Below, one piece after another: positions 15,772 through 29,665 of a stretch of DNA of 40,691 bases; position 1 is the stretch's first letter, and every line of letters starts with the position of its first letter. The notes under the pieces were generated by a model. The model had not been told where the DNA came from. It did not search any database and was given only the letters and a program-made list of their open reading frames with translations. This stretch comes from Candidatus Zixiibacteriota bacterium (GTDB taxonomy: Bacteria; Zixibacteria; MSB-5A5; RBG-16-43-9). The stretch lies in contig JALHSU010000244.1 in assembly GCA_022865345.1 (NCBI GenBank), positions 1-40,691 of the forward strand. The letters are read 5' to 3'. The position numbers were made by a program, and so were the translations under genes.

Positions 15772-18201
15772 ATGAAAAATCGAAAAAGGTTTCTTAGTTT
15801 ATTTTCCCTGTCTCTTCTTCTCCTTTTTATTCCTGCAAATCTGTTTGCTAATCAAGTTGAAGAAGATAGTGTAAAAAGCATCACCGCTTACAGGATTAAT
15901 GGCGGGGTGAAGATCGACGGGGTATTGGATGAAGACTGCTGGAGCAAAGAGGAAAAATCAGGAGGTTTCGTGCAGGCCGACCCGCATGACGGCGAGCCTG
16001 CCACTGAATCTACCTACGTGCAGGTGTGTTATGACAACCAGGCGCTTTATGTAGCTGTTACCTGCATGGAAAACGAGCCGGATAAGATTTTGGAAATCCT
16101 TACCCGCAGGGACCGCTTCAGCTCAAGCGATGCAGTCAATCTGGGGATCGATTCCTACCACGATCACCAGACCGGCTACATGTTCAAGACTTATTCTTCA
16201 GGCACCCAGTGCGACATCTATTATTTTAACGACGGTGCGGAGGACGACTCCTGGGATGCGGTGTGGGAATCTGCAGTTAAAATCGGAAAAGACCTCTGGA
16301 CAGTTGAGTATAAGATACCTTTTTCCTGTTTGAGGTTTTCCAAAGGCGACAACTACACCTGGGGATTTTATGTCTCACGTAACCTGATGCATAATCAGGA
16401 AACTGATCGCTGGGTGAGGATTCCTTCAAATCAAGCCGGATATGTGTCCAGATGGGGACATCTGACCGGAATAAAAGACATTGACCCTCCTGTGCATTTA
16501 GAGATTTTGCCCTACGTAGTCTCCACGGAAAAAACAGAGCCTGAGAGACTGGGAAACCCGGATGGAAGGGAGTTTTTCGGAAATGTCGGTGTCGATTTAA
16601 AATACGGATTAACCCCGAATTTGACTCTGGATGCTACTGTCAACCCTGATTTTGGGCAGGTAGAAATCGATGAGATCGTTTTAAACCTCTCCAATTATGA
16701 GACTTTTTATCAGGAAAAAAGACCATTTTTCTTAGAAGGTGCCAAGATTTTCGAGCCGATCCAGACCGACCTGTGCCAGCTTTTCTATTCGCGAAGAATC
16801 GGCAAGGACCCTGGTTATGATGACTCGGCTGAATATTACTACCATCGCCCCGCCTCGACAACTATATTAGCCGCTGCAAAAATTACCGGTAAGACAAAAG
16901 GAGGGACAACTATTGGATTTCTCAATGCGGTAACTGACCGGGAAAAAGCCGATTTCTGGCATCTGGACGGATATCGCACCAAAAGAGTAATCGAGCCAGA
17001 AGCAAATTATAACGTCATTAGACTCAGCCAGGATATCTTCAAGAATTCCGTAATAGGAATTATGAGTACGGCGGTCAACCAGAAGGGAAAAACCCCTTCT
17101 TATGCCGCTGGTCTGGACTGGAACCTGCGTTTCCTGAAACAAAACTATTCTTTTATAGGTCAGACCTACGGGAGCTCTAACGGAGAAAGGGAAAGGGGTG
17201 TGGGGTATTTGACTGCCCTGGGAAAAGAAGGAGGGGAGCACTGGAGAGGGAACGTTGTCTGGTTCTATCTGGATAAAAAGATCAATACCAATCGCCTGGG
17301 ATATATGAAAAGGAACGATCTGCAAGGAGGCAGCATATGGATTCAATATAAAACCCAGAAGGAATCCTGGATAATAAGAAACTCCTGGAACAATTTTAAC
17401 CTATCCTATGATGCCAATTTGAATCACGATCGCCTGGATTGGGGTTTCAATTTCAACAGCTCAGTTCAATTGACCAATGGCTGGAATGTCGGAGGAGGGT
17501 TCTACAGCGACTTAGGAGTGACTTATACTGACTGGGAAATCCCTTCCCAGCTTTTGAAAATCCCGATCGGAAGAAGCGGTTGGTTCAATCTAAACACGGA
17601 TGAAAGAAAAAAAGTTTCCGGAGGTATTAACTACGAGCTGGGAAACTATTGGGACGGGGTTTCCGAGAGCATTGATCTCTGGGTGACCTTGAAGCCACGC
17701 TCAAATCTTGAGCTTATCCTGGAGCCGAACTGGAACCGTATGCGGGATATAAGCCGGTTCGTGGGATATGCTCAGGATGCCTCTGATTCCTCCTCCCTTT
17801 ACATCTTCGGAAAACAAGCAGTTGACCGGGCAGGTCTGGACTTTAGAGGAACCTACACCTTTACCAGAGATTTGACTATTCAGCTTTACACCCAATTCTT
17901 TTTCGCTACGGGAAAATATACTGACCTTGAGAGATTCTATCCGGCAGACAGGTTTTCTCCTCTCGGAAACATTATCAATTTCAGCCAATTTCGAAATGAT
18001 TTTCACAGACGGGAGTTTGCTTCGAATCTGATTTTGAGATGGGAATATAGGCCAGGCAGCACTTTGTATTTAGTCTGGACACAGGGCAGGTACAATTATG
18101 AAGCAGGTGATTTCAATCTTAGAAAGGACTTCTCCAAATTGTTCGATACGATTTCAGACAATATCTTCTTAATCAAAACCAATTATTGGTTCAACCTGTA
18201 G
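15772..18201 (+). CDS. CBM9-like plus DUF5916 outer-membrane beta-barrel protein
   Basis: This is an 809-residue exported protein. The signal peptide is at residues 1-26. Residues about 40-240 resemble the family 9 carbohydrate-binding fold (KIDGVLDEDCWSK, ALYVAVTCMENEPDKI, WGFYVSRN). Residues about 245-809 look like DUF5916, with NPDFGQVEIDE, the strong FYQEKRPFFLEG motif, and alternating strands ending in a terminal aromatic-type strand (NYWFNL), typical of outer-membrane barrels. A GGGAGAA ribosome site precedes the ATG. The family is common in Bacteroidetes and related phyla. Its role is not established; glycan binding at the cell surface is plausible. Confidence 0.85.
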   Translation: MKNRKRFLSLFSLSLLLLFIPANLFANQVEEDSVKSITAYRINGGVKIDGVLDEDCWSKEEKSGGFVQADPHDGEPATESTYVQVCYDNQALYVAVTCMENEPDKILEILTRRDRFSSSDAVNLGIDSYHDHQTGYMFKTYSSGTQCDIYYFNDGAEDDSWDAVWESAVKIGKDLWTVEYKIPFSCLRFSKGDNYTWGFYVSRNLMHNQETDRWVRIPSNQAGYVSRWGHLTGIKDIDPPVHLEILPYVVSTEKTEPERLGNPDGREFFGNVGVDLKYGLTPNLTLDATVNPDFGQVEIDEIVLNLSNYETFYQEKRPFFLEGAKIFEPIQTDLCQLFYSRRIGKDPGYDDSAEYYYHRPASTTILAAAKITGKTKGGTTIGFLNAVTDREKADFWHLDGYRTKRVIEPEANYNVIRLSQDIFKNSVIGIMSTAVNQKGKTPSYAAGLDWNLRFLKQNYSFIGQTYGSSNGERERGVGYLTALGKEGGEHWRGNVVWFYLDKKINTNRLGYMKRNDLQGGSIWIQYKTQKESWIIRNSWNNFNLSYDANLNHDRLDWGFNFNSSVQLTNGWNVGGGFYSDLGVTYTDWEIPSQLLKIPIGRSGWFNLNTDERKKVSGGINYELGNYWDGVSESIDLWVTLKPRSNLELILEPNWNRMRDISRFVGYAQDASDSSSLYIFGKQAVDRAGLDFRGTYTFTRDLTIQLYTQFFFATGKYTDLERFYPADRFSPLGNIINFSQFRNDFHRREFASNLILRWEYRPGSTLYLVWTQGRYNYEAGDFNLRKDFSKLFDTISDNIFLIKTNYWFNL

Positions 18202-19533: not shown

Positions 19534-21351
19534 TTATTTCGCTAGCACCATTTTCTTAACCTGGACTAAACTGCCAGCCTGAATCCTATAGAAGTAAACG
19601 CCAGCAGATATCTCTCGACCCTGATCATCCTTCCCGTCCCAGGTTACAGATCTGTATCCAGCACTTTGATACTCATCTACTAGAACCTTAACTTTCTGAC
19701 CAAGAATATTATAGATGCCGAGTTTTACCTGACAGTCATTCGGAAGTGCGTATGCGATCACACATGTCGGATTGAAGGGATTAGGATAGTTCTGGCTTAT
19801 TGAGAACTCGCGGGGTAAGGCCACTGGTATTCCCTGCTTCCCTACACCACAGGATTTCACGTAAAGCTCTTTTTGGCACCAGTTTTCACAACCATCCACA
19901 TCCGTGACCCTTAGTTGATAAATACCAGCTATTCCAATTGGTCCAGTGCATTGAGTTGTAGCACTAAATCCCTCCGGACCATCCCAAAGATAGGCACTCA
20001 TCCCCGAAGGAGCGCAGAACTCAGTGGTAGAACCATCACAGATCGTGTCGGCACCAGTGATCTCACAAGCGGGTTTGTACACTGGAAAAAGTTTTTTGGT
20101 GCAGGTGTTTTCACAACCATATGGATCAACGATCGTCACTGTATAATAACCAAGAACTCCAATTGGTCCGGTGCACTGAGTAGTAGCACTGAATCCATTA
20201 GGACCACTCCAGGAATAACTGCTCATCCCGGCGGGAGCACAGAACTCTGAGGTAGTGCCAGCACATATCGTATCGTCACCGGCAATGCCACAAGCCGGCT
20301 CTGCTGTTATGACTAAAGTGCCTGAACCCTGTCCTTCACAGCCATTTGAACCGGTTACTGTAACTGTATAAGTACCTGCTACTGTTGGGTCGATGCATTC
20401 GGTATTGGCTGAGAATCCACCAGGCCCGCTCCAGCTATAGGTTAACGGCAGAGCACCGCCAATCACTGTGGCACACAAGTGACCTGAAAGACCTCCACAT
20501 ACTGAATCGTCATTAACTGTTACCTGTGGCTCAGCCGGAAAACCACTCATTGCGAAATCCTTGAGTTCTGCGTTCACCGATTGGGAAGAACGGGTTTCCA
20601 CTAAGAATTCAGAAAAACAGGCCTCAATCCCAAGTGCACCTAAATCTAAGCCTCCCTCGAAAAAGGCATTTGCCGGGAAGATTCCCGGTGTACCTTGTTT
20701 GGGTGTATAGGGCCAGGGTGAAGGTGAACCACTGGGGTTTACAATGGCAAAGGCGGTTGAGGGATTAACTGGAATAGAGTCCAGAGTACCATGAGTGCCC
20801 CCTGATCCTACCCACATGAAGACCTGAATATTAGGTACCCTACCTCCCCTGGTGAAGTCACTGAGAATCAGGATATCACCGATGGCGTGAAGACCAGCAA
20901 ATCTCCCTTTCCCATCTACAGTGATAAGAGAAACAGGATTCTTAAACAACCAGAACCCTATCTGAGCATCACCATTAGTGGCGTATCGGTCCGCACCGAA
21001 GTAAAGCAGGTTTCCCGCATAAAGGGCAGCGTAGGCGTTAGTGATCTGATCCTTAGGCGGGGAGGCTTGATTGTCCCAACCCCATTCATCCAGATCAAGC
21101 ACATCCTTGGAACCTTCGGTAAAACGAGTCGAATCAGAAGGGTCTACCAAAACCCCGGTATGAACCTCAGAAGAACCGCCGGTTGAGTTTACCAGATCCC
21201 AGTCCTCGCCTGGCTTGGACCCTTCTGAAATGGCATTGCCATCCAGTTCAAATGTGGTCTGAAGCTGGGCTACAGCATCACCAGTCAGTCCAAGTAAGAA
21301 GATGATCCCGATAAATAACGCAGTTTTTGAAACTTCCTTCCAACTAAACAT
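19534..21351 (-). CDS. secreted protein with three PKD/SprB-like repeats and T9SS-type sorting domain
   Basis: From the ATG at 21351 (GGAGGA ribosome site seven bases upstream) the protein has 605 residues; a TTG five codons earlier is less likely. After a signal peptide comes a domain of about 240 residues of unknown type, then three Ig/PKD-like repeats of 70-78 residues with conserved cysteines (EFCAP, WSGPNGFSATTQC, GCEN). The C-terminus has SQNYPNPFNP followed by a FlgD-like strand domain (YNILGQKVKVLVDE, GVYFYRIQAG, KKMVLAK), the type A sorting signal of type IX secretion. It is therefore probably exported to the cell surface or outside. No T9SS machinery gene is in the window. Confidence 0.88.
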   Translation of the reverse strand: MFSWKEVSKTALFIGIIFLLGLTGDAVAQLQTTFELDGNAISEGSKPGEDWDLVNSTGGSSEVHTGVLVDPSDSTRFTEGSKDVLDLDEWGWDNQASPPKDQITNAYAALYAGNLLYFGADRYATNGDAQIGFWLFKNPVSLITVDGKGRFAGLHAIGDILILSDFTRGGRVPNIQVFMWVGSGGTHGTLDSIPVNPSTAFAIVNPSGSPSPWPYTPKQGTPGIFPANAFFEGGLDLGALGIEACFSEFLVETRSSQSVNAELKDFAMSGFPAEPQVTVNDDSVCGGLSGHLCATVIGGALPLTYSWSGPGGFSANTECIDPTVAGTYTVTVTGSNGCEGQGSGTLVITAEPACGIAGDDTICAGTTSEFCAPAGMSSYSWSGPNGFSATTQCTGPIGVLGYYTVTIVDPYGCENTCTKKLFPVYKPACEITGADTICDGSTTEFCAPSGMSAYLWDGPEGFSATTQCTGPIGIAGIYQLRVTDVDGCENWCQKELYVKSCGVGKQGIPVALPREFSISQNYPNPFNPTCVIAYALPNDCQVKLGIYNILGQKVKVLVDEYQSAGYRSVTWDGKDDQGREISAGVYFYRIQAGSLVQVKKMVLAK

Positions 21352-21912
21352 TGGTGTCTCCTCCAATTTTTAAAGATTAGTGTAAAAACTGTATGAGATC
21401 TCATCCATGAGTCCCCCTGCAAGATAAACTGTGACTAAGAATCTGGCCTTACCTCCTTTTTTTAGAAGTGTAAATTCCCCCTCCATTCTCAATTTGAGCA
21501 GATGAATTACCCGCCAGACTTTCGTTAGCTGGCAGGTGATCTTGGGCAACACCTCCTTTGACTGCTATCAAGGTTTAATGGCTATCAAAAAATCCTCCGG
21601 TGTCTAAAAGAAAAAACAGTAAACCAGTAAAAAGAATCTGGGATACTCGGAGCTTGACTCCCCCTCACTTACAGAAGCCTACTAAATGAAATTCTGATTA
21701 TAAAATAATCATCCTCTTTCTATTGTCAAGTAAAAAATCCGGATCTGTCCGCATTGTACGCCGTACTGGTCTTTGGTTATTTAGATTCTGACTAAAGTGA
21801 ATTTTGACGCTAAGGTAGAAGATTAAAATGAAGTAATCGAAGACGCTTCGCATTTCTCTTTTACCATGTCAAGCGTAAGTTGTTAGGAGACAAATATTTC
21901 TACTCAAAAACT
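21352..21912. other. gene-poor stretch, first part
   Basis: A 60-codon minus-strand frame (21370-21552) ends just upstream of the secreted-protein gene. Its GTG start overlaps a GGAGGT sequence, and nothing in its product is recognisable, so it may be a remnant or an untranslated leader. No other content was found. Confidence 0.35.
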
Positions 21913-22621: not shown

Positions 22622-25432
22622 CTATTTATTTTGTAGACTAATCTCTCCTTCGTCAATAATCTTAACAGGTCGGAGGCTAGGCAAAACCTTTATTCCAACT
22701 TTTTTCGCTTCCCCTGGTCCTATTTCGATTTGGAACTCCTCCTGCTCCAGATAATGGTGGGCCGGCAGGTTCTGATTGTAGACTTTCAGAGTCCATTTGC
22801 CTGATCTCATATTGTCAAAGGAAAACCCACCTTCTTCATCCGTAACCTGCTGTAAAATTTCTTGTCCTTTAGTAATTTGTACTATAATGCCCTTTAACCC
22901 CAGTTCCTTCTCCTTCACCTCGCCGGAGCCTTCCAAAAACAGACTGTTGTTAGGTATACCATCCTCGTGATTCAGCTTTTTATTGGAGTCGCTTGCAAAA
23001 ACTGCCACCGTGCCTGAGATTGTACAATAGCTCACCACACCAATCTCGATCTCAGTGGTTTTCCCACCTTCTACTTCTACTAGGATGGGGAGCCTTTCGC
23101 TGGTGACTCGATTGAGTCCGATTGAGCTCATCTCTACCTGGAGGCGGTGGGCTCCCGGGACCAGTGAAGGAAATATGAACTCGCCGTTATTGTCTGTGAT
23201 CGCGGTCGCTCCATTAACTGTTAGAAGGACTTTTGGAATGGGTGGTCTTCCTGGTTTTTCTTCATCATAAACCCTGCCCTTAAGAACTCCTGTGCTCTTC
23301 TTCTTGCTTACAGGTATTTTTCCATGAATGGTATACATCAAAAAAAACAAGAGCTCTTCCTTTCTGTTCTCTCCACTCTTAGACCATTGAGTTCTAAAAA
23401 TTAGTGCATGGCGATTTTTAAAGGCATAGGTAAAAGTGGAAAAAATATCGTCTCTTTCCTCGCTTCTTTCAGAACCAGCCTTCTCCTTCCTATAGTCAAG
23501 GCTAAAAGAAATGATATCCCTAATATTCCAAGAACTCGAAATACCGAGGCTTTTCGTTCTTTTCGGGCTCCCGGCAAAGCTACCATGCCCAATTCTGGTG
23601 TAAAGGCTGTAGCTGTGAATGTAACTCGGACGAAAAGAGGCATAAAGGCCATACCTTTCTAAATTATCACTCCCTTTAGCTAAGAGCTTGTCTTCAAATT
23701 TCCCTCTTTCGATCTGCGTACTTAGGCTTAATTTGCCAAACGTCTGGTCTAGCTCCAATCTCCATTTTTCTTCCTCATAATTGTAATTTGCCGGAAAGAG
23801 ATAATCTTTCCTGATCAAATGTTCGTGGTCCAAAGAAATGTGAGTCCCGAATGGAAGAGAATATCTCATGCCTGCCCAGTAGGCTTTTTCTCGGTTAGCT
23901 ATCCCTCTGGTGGAGTCAATCTCGAGATTATTCTTATAGCTACGAAAACCGAGGTTTCCCAGCAGTTTACGGTAGATTGGAAAGGTTAGTGTTCCGTTAC
24001 CATAATCAGTATCATTGTAGTAACCAAAATACTTTGATCCCGCATAAATGTTTTCAAAAGAGTATGTGACCCGGCTACGTAGCTGGCCCTGAAGAGCCAT
24101 TCTAAAGGCTAACCCATTAGATTTGTCTTCCCTATCACTTTGGCAGAAACCAAACTCCAGGTCAAGGTCGAAGGCCTGATTTGGCTTCATTTCTGCCTGA
24201 ATACTGTATATTCTCGAGTCATAGTCTTTAGAAGTAAAGGCTGATCCTGTGGTTTTGCTCAAGAAGGTACTCTTTATCTGAAGCTTGTTATTGAATTGAT
24301 ATGTAAGATAGGCTCCCACTTGCTTTTTCTTTGGTTCTCCCCATCTAGTCTCCAAATAGAAAGCTCCGCTTCCAAACTTCCCGTGATAAATATTCGCCTC
24401 CACCCCCCTCCCATAGCTTAGTCTTTCAGTTAAGGGGGAAAGAGAATAACTCCTGTCGCCAAAATGCAGGTCTAAATGTTTTTGATGGTAACTTAGCCGA
24501 TACTCATCTCTGTACCCGTATCTGCTGACCTCTTGGATATCAGGAAAACGAAAGAGAAAATCAACCCCTCTTTTACCCTCTTCATCCAGGCTGCCGCGAC
24601 CGGAAAGCTCTGCTTGAAAGTCACCTTTTCCTGCTTGGCCTGCACCAATTAATGCTACTTTGATGGGTAATTTATGGTAAGGGTCAAATTCGCCGGTTAC
24701 CCGAGGAATAACGTCTACAGATACCGTTTGACAGGCAGAAGTGGCACCCCTTTTCAATTCTTCGGTCTCAACCTTTATTTCAACAATATTTTTGATTCTC
24801 TGTTTTAATTTCTCATCTGTCTTTATCTCAAGCTTTATAGATTGGGACTTTCCAGCTTCCAAAGTTAACTCAGATGGTTCCATCTTAAGGGGAAAGGCTG
24901 GATTTGATTTTGCAGCGAGTTTCATGCTGCTACTTCCATTGCCTTTGTTAACCAGGCTAAAACTTACCTCATAAACCTCTCCGGCGATCACGACTTCGGG
25001 TCTTGATTCTACTATGATTTCTAGATTTACTACCGGCAAAACCATAACCGATATACTATCGCTGTCTGCGATATTATAATCCCTCTGACTTCTGATCGAA
25101 TAGCCAATCTGGTAGCGTCCTGCAGGAGAGGATAGAGGAACGAAGAACGCGACTACTCGAACTTGTTGTTGCTCTGGTTTTAGCTTTAAAGAAAATTCGT
25201 TCGCGGCAACCTTCTGCCAACCATCTGGCAGCTTGAGTTCTTCGGCGAAGTCTTCCTCCTCACCGGTATAGTTGGAGATTAGGAAGCTTCCGGTAATGAT
25301 TCTACCTGGTTCCACCTCCACGATTTCAGGAGAGCTCGATCTCACTCTAACCCCACGGCTCTTATCTTCAGCCAGGGTTAAAGAAAATAAAAGAGTAAGA
25401 AAACAAAGAGATAAAAATGAAATCTTTTTCAT
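22622..25432 (-). CDS. usher-like outer-membrane barrel protein with Ig-like N- and C-terminal domains
   Basis: This 936-residue exported protein has a signal peptide at residues 1-21. Residues about 25-245 are two Ig-like domains of the NPCBM-associated/NEW3 style (PGRIITGSFLISNYTGEE; GEVYEVSFSLVNKGNGSS). Residues about 250-700 are alternating strands with many Tyr and Gly, consistent with a beta barrel. Residues about 705-925 are two carboxypeptidase-regulatory/SdrD-like domains (GRVYDEEKPGRPPIPKV, ITDNNGEFIFPSLVPG; VTDEEGGFSFDNMRSG). It is last in the operon and overlaps the chaperone-like gene by four bases. Place and architecture suggest a pore for the two subunit proteins, by analogy with FimD-type ushers; sequence similarity to ushers is not obvious. 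Confidence 0.65.
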   Translation of the reverse strand: MKKISFLSLCFLTLLFSLTLAEDKSRGVRVRSSSPEIVEVEPGRIITGSFLISNYTGEEEDFAEELKLPDGWQKVAANEFSLKLKPEQQQVRVVAFFVPLSSPAGRYQIGYSIRSQRDYNIADSDSISVMVLPVVNLEIIVESRPEVVIAGEVYEVSFSLVNKGNGSSSMKLAAKSNPAFPLKMEPSELTLEAGKSQSIKLEIKTDEKLKQRIKNIVEIKVETEELKRGATSACQTVSVDVIPRVTGEFDPYHKLPIKVALIGAGQAGKGDFQAELSGRGSLDEEGKRGVDFLFRFPDIQEVSRYGYRDEYRLSYHQKHLDLHFGDRSYSLSPLTERLSYGRGVEANIYHGKFGSGAFYLETRWGEPKKKQVGAYLTYQFNNKLQIKSTFLSKTTGSAFTSKDYDSRIYSIQAEMKPNQAFDLDLEFGFCQSDREDKSNGLAFRMALQGQLRSRVTYSFENIYAGSKYFGYYNDTDYGNGTLTFPIYRKLLGNLGFRSYKNNLEIDSTRGIANREKAYWAGMRYSLPFGTHISLDHEHLIRKDYLFPANYNYEEEKWRLELDQTFGKLSLSTQIERGKFEDKLLAKGSDNLERYGLYASFRPSYIHSYSLYTRIGHGSFAGSPKRTKSLGISSSWNIRDIISFSLDYRKEKAGSERSEERDDIFSTFTYAFKNRHALIFRTQWSKSGENRKEELLFFLMYTIHGKIPVSKKKSTGVLKGRVYDEEKPGRPPIPKVLLTVNGATAITDNNGEFIFPSLVPGAHRLQVEMSSIGLNRVTSERLPILVEVEGGKTTEIEIGVVSYCTISGTVAVFASDSNKKLNHEDGIPNNSLFLEGSGEVKEKELGLKGIIVQITKGQEILQQVTDEEGGFSFDNMRSGKWTLKVYNQNLPAHHYLEQEEFQIEIGPGEAKKVGIKVLPSLRPVKIIDEGEISLQNK

Positions 25433-26235
25433 TGCTCAATTTCTAAATCATATTGGGCACCGAAGACATATTCGTCTCCGTTGTCGACCATCACCAAGGC
25501 TTTATACTTCCCTATTGGAACATCGCCTAAATCAATCTTATGTCTTATAGAACAACCCGGATAGATGCGCAGCTGACGATTTCCAAAGCGCCCCATATTT
25601 TTACCGCCCTTATCATAAAGCTCTACCCAGAGAGTCGGACGAAGCCACCTTTCCCCGATATTCTCAATATCCATTTGAAGAGTTCTCCTCCCATCCTGGC
25701 TGATTAGCTTCTTATCCAAAAACTTTATCTTACGGTCTCCGGTATCACCGATATTGGTAACGATCTGAATACCGTAACGCAATACAGTCTTAATACCCAA
25801 CTTTACCTTTCCCGTTTCATCTTCAATATCTTTTGAACCTGTCTCGGAGGTAGGTTCTACCATTAACATACTCCAGTATGTGCCAATCAAGTCCGGTTGC
25901 TGGGGAACTTCGATGATATAATAGACCGATGCCATTTCTTTTGGTGGGATAGTTAGACGAGTTGGGCTTATCGAAAGCCAGCCTGCATTAGAACGAGGGA
26001 TTCTTCCCGATTCACCGTAGATGTTGCTCCCATCTGCATAGAACAGATAATCAGTCTTATAGATGGTCACCTCCCAGGAAGTTTCTCCTGTATTCTTTAA
26101 AGTAACCTTTCCTTCAAATTTCTCTCCAGGTTGCATGGTCTTTTCACGTGTGAGTTCTCCAATCAGCGAAACACCTGCAAAAGAAGACTCGCCTAAAACA
26201 AAGAGAATCAAAAACAGACAAGAAATCCTCTTCAT
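25429..26235 (-). CDS. PapD-like periplasmic chaperone candidate (two Ig-like domains)
   Basis: This 268-residue exported protein has a signal peptide at 1-20. The first beta domain (about 22-150) contains NAGWLSISPTRLTIPPKEMASV followed by YYIIEVPQQP and GTYWSMLMVEP; this succession resembles the G1-strand and proline-rich region of pilus chaperones, where a 'SP.r..l.P...q.' pattern is common. The second domain (about 165-268) is another sandwich with KFLDKKLISQDGRRTLQMDIEN. It overlaps the barrel gene start by four bases and follows the second subunit gene by nine bases. Function as a subunit chaperone is inferred from fold-like features and the operon. An alternative is a DUF916-like surface-binding protein. 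Confidence 0.6.
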   Translation of the reverse strand: MKRISCLFLILFVLGESSFAGVSLIGELTREKTMQPGEKFEGKVTLKNTGETSWEVTIYKTDYLFYADGSNIYGESGRIPRSNAGWLSISPTRLTIPPKEMASVYYIIEVPQQPDLIGTYWSMLMVEPTSETGSKDIEDETGKVKLGIKTVLRYGIQIVTNIGDTGDRKIKFLDKKLISQDGRRTLQMDIENIGERWLRPTLWVELYDKGGKNMGRFGNRQLRIYPGCSIRHKIDLGDVPIGKYKALVMVDNGDEYVFGAQYDLEIEQ

Positions 26236-26244
26236 TATTCCTCC

Positions 26245-26793
26245 TTATTGAATATCAACTACAGTGAAGGTAATAGTTGTGCTACGGTTACCTGGTGTAA
26301 TACCTACCGACATTCCGGTTAATTTATATTGAACAGTTATATTGTTTCTGTCCCCGCGGCCTTCGAAGAATTGTGAATCAATTGTTGGATTGATTTCAGT
26401 ATAAGAGAGCCCCCCAGATATACTACCTCCGCCCGTTCCATCTGAGGTTCTCCTTACATAAAGTATAAGACTGATAGGCCAGCTACCAGTATCATCCCTC
26501 TTCACGTCTACTTTCCATTCGTCTTGATCGTCTATGCAATTAGAGATATTTATGGTGCTAGCATTTGTGCTGCTTTCATATGTGTCAACTAGGTTACTAC
26601 CCGCTCCGGAGATCAAATCCGCCTCATTGACTGTTTTACTCCATCCACCGGTCGCAGATATATCTATCCCTTCAGCCTCAGTCAAAAACAACAAAAACAG
26701 ACCTACGAGAAAAAATAATCTCACTAAAAGAATGATGAGTGGGGTGGCTTGGCTTCCCAGCCACCCCAGGTTTGTCCTTGACTTACTAACCAT
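26245..26793 (-). CDS. small secreted protein, second (minor) subunit candidate
   Basis: This is up to 182 residues, starting at an ATG that overlaps the upstream gene by eight bases. An internal GTG at codon 28 gives a neat signal peptide (RLFFLVGLFLLFLTEAEG) and would place the hairpin at 26740-26768 outside the gene, so the true start is uncertain. The mature part is beta-rich with Asn, Ser, Thr and Gly and one cysteine. Its end, GNRSTTITFTVVDIQ, is closely similar to the end of the first subunit, which suggests paralogy. I infer a fibre or surface-layer component. No family was recognised with certainty. Confidence 0.65.
   Translation of the reverse strand: MVSKSRTNLGWLGSQATPLIILLVRLFFLVGLFLLFLTEAEGIDISATGGWSKTVNEADLISGAGSNLVDTYESSTNASTINISNCIDDQDEWKVDVKRDDTGSWPISLILYVRRTSDGTGGGSISGGLSYTEINPTIDSQFFEGRGDRNNITVQYKLTGMSVGITPGNRSTTITFTVVDIQ
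26740..26768 (-). promoter_or_regulatory. intercistronic hairpin between the two subunit genes
   Basis: TGGGGTGGCT (26740-26749) pairs perfectly with AGCCACCCCA (26759-26768), with a 9-base loop. It lies about 18 bases after the stop of the first subunit gene on the minus strand. It could block 3' decay of the first gene's mRNA and give it higher expression, as in pilin operons, or act as partial attenuator. No long U-tract follows. Confidence 0.55.
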
Positions 26794-27274
26794 CTGTCAG
26801 AGTAAGTGTTACTGTTCTTTGTGCCTGGCTTACCACGCCAGCAGCGACTGTAGCAGACAATGTATAAGTTATTGACAGGCCACTCTGTACTACCGTACTA
26901 ATCCCCGTGACCAGATCTGCAGCAGTAGCCAACAAAGTCACATAGCCGCTGCTGGAACCCCCTGTTGGAGCTCCCAGGTTTACCTGCAGAGTAATATTGG
27001 CCGGCATATTGGTATTAATTGCCCCGGTCATCTTTTTGTTGCTTCCATTAGTGGTCACAGCCCAGGTTGTGGTATTATCCGCATCAGCAACCGGCTGGGA
27101 ACCTGCGGTTGCAGTGTTAACGTCCAGGTTGCCAGGATTTCCGCTGGTGGAAATCTCATTAATGGCACTGACCTCAAATGTAACCGTTTGCTGAGCGGTG
27201 TTTGCGGCTATCGCCAGATTACATATGACAAGCACAAGCCCCAACACAACCATACTAACCATTAACTTCCTCAT
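26786..27274 (-). CDS. small secreted protein, first (major) subunit candidate
   Basis: This protein is 162 residues from the ATG at 27274; the in-frame GTG at 27283 lies inside the strong AGGAGGTGAG ribosome site, so I reject it. A signal peptide ends near ANTAQQ (about residue 24). The mature protein is Thr/Ser/Ala/Asn-rich beta sequence without cysteine, and ends QAQRTVTLTLTDG. It is first in the operon with the best ribosome site, as expected for a major fibre subunit. Distant similarity to spore-coat-U/CsuA or DUF4402-type subunit domains is possible but cannot be shown by eye. Confidence 0.7.
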   Translation of the reverse strand: MRKLMVSMVVLGLVLVICNLAIAANTAQQTVTFEVSAINEISTSGNPGNLDVNTATAGSQPVADADNTTTWAVTTNGSNKKMTGAINTNMPANITLQVNLGAPTGGSSSGYVTLLATAADLVTGISTVVQSGLSITYTLSATVAAGVVSQAQRTVTLTLTDG

Positions 27275-27283
27275 CTTTCTCAC

Positions 27284-27891
27284 CTCCTGCCGCCCCCCTA
27301 TGGTTTTACTTTTACTTTACAAACTAATGACAAAACATCATTTTGTAGTGTCGGAAGCCTGCAGAAAATCTAGTTGGATTATTGAAGGTAAGTCCACCCA
27401 TCTTGTTGAGCAAATATCTCACTTGCTTCTAATCCATAATAGATAATCTTTCTAAGGCAGACTCGATGAAATCAGATCCTCCTTTCCTCTTAAAGATTAA
27501 GCAGATACTATACTTACATTCCTAGCAACTTTCCTTTGCTCTTATTATCGGTTTTGTTTTCGAGACCTTTAAGGCATAAGGAAGGGATTATATAGGTTAA
27601 TTTTTTAGTCAAGATACTATATAAACCCGGCAAGATGCCGAATAGATTAACAACGTCGTGAGATTTTAGAGATCTATTCAAGATCAAAAAGTTTGTGTCT
27701 TCTGAAATGCGAAATTAAAATCCAGGTTACTGGAATTTTTCTGTCACCGTTTGGCGATAATGAGAAGCTGAAATCAATGGAGAAAAAAATAGCTACTGAG
27801 GTTATCCAGAACATCATCCTGACTTAGGTACCAGTATGCTTGAATTCATGAGGTGATAGAAAAAAGTAACCTATCAGAAAGGAGGTTGTAG
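27284..27891. other. long divergent intergenic region between the subunit operon and galT
   Basis: These 608 bases hold the promoters of two divergent units. I could not assign clear -35/-10 pairs. A short sequence TGTAGTGTCGGAAG near 27345 recurs at about 40440. AT-rich blocks lie near 27590-27620. No gene was found. Confidence 0.4.
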
Positions 27892-29266: not shown

Positions 29267-29665
29267 GTGGAAGAGTTAAAAAATATCTTAGTCGTAGATA
29301 ACCACCAGAATATCCTGGAACTCCTTAGTAATCTATTGCAGATGTACAAATATCAAACCTTCTGTGCCCTGGATACTCAGTCCGCGCTAAAACTGCTGGA
29401 TGAGGAAAAGGTCGACTGCGTAGTCACGGATGTGGAAATGCCCAAGCCTAATGGTTTCGACCTGCTGGATGAGATCAAGAATAGATACCCTCAGGTGCCG
29501 GTCATAATGATCTCCTCTTATGCCAATCCCAAAATGGAAAAACAGGCACATGAAAACGGGGCATCCGGTTTTACTGCCAAGCCTTTCAGCATCGAGACGT
29601 TGCAAAAGATGATCGAGAATGCTCTGGATAAAACCGTAAAGACCGAGAAAGTCCAGACTTGTTAG
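29267..29665 (+). CDS. stand-alone response regulator receiver (CheY-like)
   Basis: This 132-residue protein consists of a single receiver domain. The phospho-acceptor aspartate is in VVTDVEMPKPNG, the switch serine in MISSY, and the lysine in AKPF. The acidic pair near the N-terminus is VDNH, so one of the usual two acidic residues is Asn. No output domain is attached, so it would act through a partner. GTG start with GGAGGT three bases upstream. No kinase is nearby. A cytosolic signalling role is likely, target unknown. Confidence 0.88.
   Translation: MEELKNILVVDNHQNILELLSNLLQMYKYQTFCALDTQSALKLLDEEKVDCVVTDVEMPKPNGFDLLDEIKNRYPQVPVIMISSYANPKMEKQAHENGASGFTAKPFSIETLQKMIENALDKTVKTEKVQTC

Follow-up and report, generated by a model that had tools for sequence, protein, structure and literature searches.

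The 40,691-nt contig JALHSU010000244.1 of a Candidatus Zixiibacteriota bacterium (assembly GCA_022865345.1), analysed here at its full length as a single window, carries four neighbouring open reading frames on its minus strand at positions 22622–27274. An earlier reading of the sequence (the original prediction) had called them an operon, and all four frames are present, each with an N-terminal hydrophobic signal segment. We conclude that they probably encode a deeply divergent chaperone–usher-type fibre assembly system. We infer this function partly from sequence (the conserved operon, the signal sequences, two kinds of subunit that differ by an N-terminal segment, and a hairpin) and partly from structure prediction (a chaperone of the WxLIP/PapD type with two immunoglobulin (Ig)-like domains, and a barrel of 26 strands flanked by domains in an usher-like order). 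The best reading is that the operon is a variant that works like the chaperone–usher pathway and whose chaperone is of the type found in the Gram-positive WxL cluster. We report a variant, and do not assign it to a named class, because it falls outside the Pfam families and lacks the plug, the anchoring arginine and the WxL motifs by which such classes are recognized.

In the order of transcription the minus-strand genes are subunit 1 (26786–27274; strand-bearing, the candidate major fibre subunit), subunit 2 (26245–26793; 182 aa, short type without the N-terminal segment, the candidate tip or initiating subunit), a two-domain Ig-like periplasmic chaperone of the WxLIP/PapD type (25429–26235; 268 aa) and an usher-like outer-membrane protein with a predicted barrel (22622–25432; 936 aa).

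Recurrence of the operon

Three further genomes from this taxonomic order carry all four genes in the same arrangement, at 55–71% identity and with different flanks, the relatives of subunit 1 there being 64–71% identical; in a fourth genome of that order the barrel gene lies at a contig end. The chaperone alignment was also used in a pattern-led scan of 84,980 species genomes, which yielded 19 loci, three of them records of the three same-order Zixibacteria genomes. The other titles are Krumholzibacteriota, Pelobacter, Syntrophales, Deltaproteobacteria, Desulfobacula, Armatimonadetes, Riflebacteria, Spirochaetales, Atribacteria, KSB1, Ignavibacteria (two), Bacteroidetes, Rhodothermales, Elusimicrobia and one unplaced bacterium, so that the 19 loci span about ten phyla. 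All come from metagenome-assembled genomes, and the taxon titles therefore depend on binning.

The barrel gene follows the chaperone gene on the same strand in 19/19 loci, and subunit genes (one to five copies in the other loci) precede the chaperone wherever the contig reaches far enough, one contig beginning at the chaperone itself. Divergence of the chaperone is correlated with that of the barrel (over 16 loci, r is 0.86, and 0.67 on excluding pairs inside Zixibacteria). Given an order kept at this level of identity despite different flanks, and given the 19 loci, the four-gene arrangement is, as far as gene order can tell, far beyond chance. The proposed chaperone–usher gene logic thus gains support from the order in the 19 loci as well as from the chaperone and barrel folds, and the homologous genes, whose separate occurrence would have spoken against it, always occur together in the loci found.

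Judged by gene content, the distribution is patchy, since neither of two congeneric genomes has the operon, nor does one from the same family. A candidate empty site in the same-family genome, at a galT orthologue without the operon, was rejected, as other genes there differ too. Two loci, in Syntrophales (L067:1122–3916) and Desulfobacula (L077:1762–5922), are broken operons with split barrel genes; in the latter a deletion has fused the beginning of subunit 2 with the chaperone.

Chaperone

The AlphaFold2 model of the chaperone (predicted local distance difference test score, pLDDT, 85.8) has two beta-sandwich domains, and its topology is that of a PapD-like two-domain periplasmic chaperone. 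In a Foldseek search of the PDB the top match was the Enterococcus faecium WxLIP (E 1e-15), then CfaA, CsuC, Caf1M, FimC and others; chaperones of the chaperone–usher pathway (E 5e-11 to 4e-8) make up most of the top 50. The structure search that the original prediction proposed has thus returned a chaperone-like, tandem-Ig topology for this 268-residue protein. WxLIP is also the sole sequence match of the family profile among all PDB chains (E 4e-4). Weak Pfam matches to DUF916 and DUF3324 occur in four and two of the 17 family members, respectively, the window protein having none, and PapD_N and PapD_C match none of the 17. In another genome of the same class, a protein of 546 residues matches WxLIP_PGBD above the Pfam cut-off, and its gene adjoins a secretin gene (L083:5778–7418).

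The last strand of domain 1 (residues 153–162, RYGIQIVTNI; 25750–25779, minus strand) is the candidate donor strand G1. A strand is modelled at residues 154–162, Arg153 and Tyr154 are invariant in 17/17 members, and positions 156 and 158 are hydrophobic in 17/17, and the hydrophobic residues after Arg153-Tyr154 alternate, as they should in a donor strand. The classical cleft pair is PapD Arg8/Lys112; here Arg30 is present in 7/17 members, against the invariant Arg153 at the start of the last domain 1 strand. A carboxylate-anchoring arginine in strand F1 (CsuC Arg89) characterizes archaic/alternative chaperones (PMC4654587), and the position aligned to it, 123, is Met, Ile or Leu in every member. 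A C-terminal membrane helix is likewise lacking: no 19-mer after residue 40 has a mean hydropathy above 1.22 in any of the 17.

Barrel protein

The modelled barrel protein (pLDDT 85.5) begins with two NEW3/Ig-like domains (residues 27–243; 24704–25354, minus strand), for which Pfam gives weak NEW3/Ig matches and the model gives strands. These are followed by a beta-barrel of 26 strands, by DSSP of the model and a strand and loop count (residues 252–710; 23303–24679, minus strand), and by two C-terminal CarboxypepD_reg/transthyretin-like domains (residues 715–811 and 850–918; 22679–23290, minus strand), modelled and matched by PF13620 above its cut-off (E 2e-11). The NEW3-type front and regulatory-like back described at the outset are borne out by Pfam and the model alike, and a large barrel with an N-terminal periplasmic domain and two C-terminal domains is what ushers have. 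By its predicted strand number, 26 against 24 in FimD and PapC, the barrel would not be too small for export. The best nine PDB fold matches are all FimD (E 4e-17 to 7e-13; template modelling (TM) scores 0.28–0.41), with PapC further down and AlgE, MtrB and LptD following FimD at about 1e-7. On the model, the architecture is usher-like without being a close match. Matches to NOMO, the axoneme and CEP192 were set aside as reflecting generic Ig/transthyretin repeats.

In the window proteins Pfam recognizes only the regulatory-like domains at the C-terminus of the barrel protein and the weak NEW3/Ig matches at its N-terminus, and NCBIfam finds nothing above its cut-offs. Pfam Usher (PF00577) matches one of the 21 members of the barrel alignment, weakly (E 0.0013).

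Pfam SPOR, a peptidoglycan-binding domain, occurs in three members of the barrel alignment, one of which (L066) was confirmed individually, and a SpoIID-like insert lies between the two C-terminal domains of three barrel relatives, in two of which Pfam SpoIID matches. Both kinds of domain would fit a periplasmic barrel C-terminus near peptidoglycan. Extra C-terminal stretches are found on the barrel proteins L066:10814–14200, L075:2705–5824 and L081:3035–6091. The inserts (L013:7462–10737, L015:9383–12697 and L016:6269–8269) are partial SpoIID-like domains of ~150 residues, absent from the window copy, that resemble separate SpoIID proteins of the same genomes.

Subunits and hairpin

The mature N-terminal segment of subunit 1, ANTAQQTVTFEVSAINE (27155–27205, minus strand), has 17 residues and is a candidate donor strand; 17 is also the commonest number of mature residues between cleavage site and domain core among the strand-bearing subunits, with signal cleavage sites set by rule of thumb. 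Subunits 1 and 2 are homologous by profile comparison (hhalign probability 94%, E 1e-7). Residue 43 is the first aligned residue of subunit 1, and the beginning of subunit 2 falls at the end of that subunit's N-terminal segment. Where an operon has no subunit 2, the position immediately upstream of the chaperone gene is taken by a short protein of the subunit 1 type that has no such segment. From this anatomy, complete operons would pair donor-bearing subunits with at least one candidate acceptor-only subunit, as in tipped fibres.

The subunits have no SCPU match, and their alignments show no conserved WxL motif. An SCPU search of the class also gave no match, but its controls were silent too, which makes it uninformative. 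A sequence search of the PDB with the subunit profiles returned only viral coat proteins (E 0.04 or worse), which we take as chance.

The gene of subunit 1 is followed by a 65-nt intergenic stretch with an intercistronic hairpin, TGGGGTGGCTGGGAAGCCAAGCCACCCCA (26740–26768, minus strand; minimum free energy of the stretch -24.4, z -3.3). The 60-nt stretch at the hairpin is the most stable of the 461 60-nt windows in the operon. The most stable 60-nt window of the whole operon sits after a strand-bearing subunit gene in 8/12 operons, from several phyla, and among the four Zixibacteria operons the letters of the stem differ while pairing is kept. Some hairpins (L073, L068 and L076) are followed by terminator-like T-runs. 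In pilin operons a stem-loop behind the major pilin gene raises its share of transcript, and the position seen here is as expected if the strand-bearing subunit is made in excess.

Sister operons

A second, commoner operon type in the same class (L084–L091) has the same gene order, with DUF4402-like subunits, a chaperone of ~290 residues and an usher-like protein of ~860 residues. There are several DUF4402-like subunits per operon, some without an N-terminal segment. The sister chaperone has weak PapD_N matches and an invariant archaic arginine, both unlike the window family; its usher-like protein goes unrecognized by Pfam Usher, Pfam seeing one C-terminal regulatory-like domain. Pfam Usher has no match in 129 genomes of the class, with a positive E. 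coli control.

In profile comparisons the chaperones of the window and sister families are clearly homologous (probability 98.9%, E 1e-17) and the barrels probably so (81.6%, E 1e-5). Against E. coli K-12, the sister family in turn weakly matches the chaperones at 60% (E 8e-5) and, colinearly, the ushers at 36% (E 4e-4), while reversed and column-shuffled controls for the window/sister and sister/K-12 pairs gave 0.5% or less, those for the window/sister pairs 0.4% at most. At the level of profiles, the sister family weakly ties the window chaperone and barrel to the chaperones and ushers of E. coli. The sister subunits are of another type: subunit 1 aligned to them over only 43 columns (43.6%) and subunit 2 had no match, so neither pairing was accepted.

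Gene starts and neighbouring genes

Subunit 1 has 162 aa from the ATG at 27274, and 165 aa from an alternative upstream GTG at 27283. The ATG is most likely the start, because a ribosome-binding motif AGGAGG, read directly in the sequence (27283–27288, minus strand), lies 8 bases before it and is overlapped by the GTG. Part of the tight packing described in the original prediction stands, namely the 4-base overlap of the chaperone and barrel genes and the 9-base gap between the subunit 2 and chaperone genes. As originally called, genes 1 and 2 overlap by 8 bases, which is probably an artefact of the start codon chosen, gene 2 more likely starting at GTG 26724 than at ATG 26793, since gene 2 of three relatives starts ~22 codons later, with 59–69 bases between the subunit genes; GTG 26724 matches that start and would give a gap of 61 bases.

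Elsewhere in the window are a DUF5916 protein with a CBM9-like domain (15772–18201; Pfam E 5e-85), an exported protein adjoining the operon (19534–21366) whose C-terminus is a FlgD-like sorting-type tail (YPNPFNP...GVYFYRIQAG), and a stand-alone receiver domain 2 kb from the operon (29267–29665). Sensor/response-regulator type genes lie beside or near the operons L066, L068, L070, L071, L073 and L074.

Weighing the readings

Several results weigh against a chaperone–usher-type system. The window proteins are without Pfam PapD or Usher matches, the original prediction having likewise seen no classical usher or FimC motif. The chaperone model as a whole fits known chaperones moderately (TM about 0.35–0.6), and TM-scores of the barrel to FimD and PapC are low (0.24–0.43). 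The modelled barrel has no inserted plug domain, since the longest of its inter-strand loops has 13 residues. Tested sequence by sequence, the hydrophobic residues in the N-terminal segment of the subunits do not alternate significantly. Nor did the window chaperone and barrel, compared directly by profile, match E. coli K-12 families significantly; for the barrel against ushers the comparison gave 13.7%, close to the 5.7% of its reversed control, and we therefore claim the link to E. coli only via the sister family.

Low TM-scores would suit an ordinary large porin or polysaccharide exporter with three accessory proteins, its likeness to ushers being that of generic barrels and Ig domains, and three relatives do have weak Pfam Porin_4 matches, just as the AlgE and MtrB barrels are among the fold matches. 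We consider this very improbable: FimD heads the fold matches with an E-value about ten orders of magnitude better than those of AlgE, MtrB and LptD and with ~800 columns aligned, a chaperone-type protein and small subunits constantly accompany the barrel, and there is the link via the sister family. Somewhat less improbable is a diderm counterpart of the WxL cluster, in which the small proteins and the WxLIP-like protein would form a non-polymeric complex that the barrel only anchors at the outer membrane and peptidoglycan, with no fibre. The Firmicutes cluster likewise sets a tandem Ig-like protein (WxLIP, DUF916 plus DUF3324), the closest relative of our chaperone by both sequence and fold, beside two small exported proteins (PMC10599100, PMC9772566), and the peptidoglycan-related domains on several barrel proteins would suit an anchor. 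According to published modelling, WxLIP would supply the completing strand of the WxL sandwich (PMC10599100), and by analogy this is the donor-strand principle. We still think this reading unlikely, as neither subunit has a conserved WxL motif, the chaperone is without the C-terminal membrane helix, an outer-membrane barrel gene always follows it, up to five subunit paralogues stand ahead of it, and the contrast of strand-bearing and short subunits, together with the hairpin, fits a polymer.

The operon might instead be a known archaic (sigma) chaperone–usher system too diverged for Pfam, and not a separate variant. Most descriptions of chaperone–usher systems come from Proteobacteria, and archaic ones are known beyond them too, e.g. 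in Cyanobacteria and Deinococcus-Thermus (PMC4654587), and the window family agrees with the CsuC/CsuD type in gene logic, tandem-Ig chaperone, usher-like barrel with two C-terminal domains and several subunits. This is the least unlikely of the three alternatives, but we give it a low probability, because the F1-strand arginine, invariant even in the sister family, is replaced throughout, the barrel is plug-less with 26 instead of 24 strands and two N-terminal NEW3-like domains, and the subunits have no SCPU match. The classical systems (FimC/FimD and PapD/PapC) differ from the operon in the same barrel features and in that direct sequence homology is undetectable, whereas they share with it the FimC-like chaperone topology and, in FimD, the best barrel fold.

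Proposed mechanism and outlook

In a divergent chaperone–usher-type pathway, which remains our preferred reading, the subunits would cross the inner membrane by Sec, and the chaperone would complete each of them by lending it the final strand of domain 1 (residues 153–162). The N- and C-terminal domains of the barrel protein would take up the chaperone–subunit complexes, the N-terminal segment of an incoming strand-bearing subunit would displace the chaperone strand in the previous subunit, and the growing fibre would exit via the barrel. As the short subunit has no donor segment, its place would be outermost, at the tip, and the hairpin would ensure an excess of subunit 1. Such a fibre would most likely serve attachment.

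A bolder claim, possible but somewhat doubtful in our estimate, is that the operon represents a separate, undescribed class of chaperone–usher-like fibre pathway, found in some ten phyla, most of them uncultured, and using a chaperone of the same lineage as the WxLIP of monoderm bacteria. On that claim, the Gram-positive WxL cluster and the Gram-negative chaperone–usher pathway would be two descendants of one donor-strand system. We found no description of this operon, and no work since 2018 that names both WxL and chaperone–usher, in a literature search that left preprints and most subscription journals outside. As a chaperone–usher-type system, the operon would carry the chaperone–usher principle into about ten more lineages, most of them uncultured, and to a barrel of 26 strands without a plug. 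With it, a common origin of the Firmicutes WxL/WxLIP cluster and the chaperone–usher pathway becomes testable.

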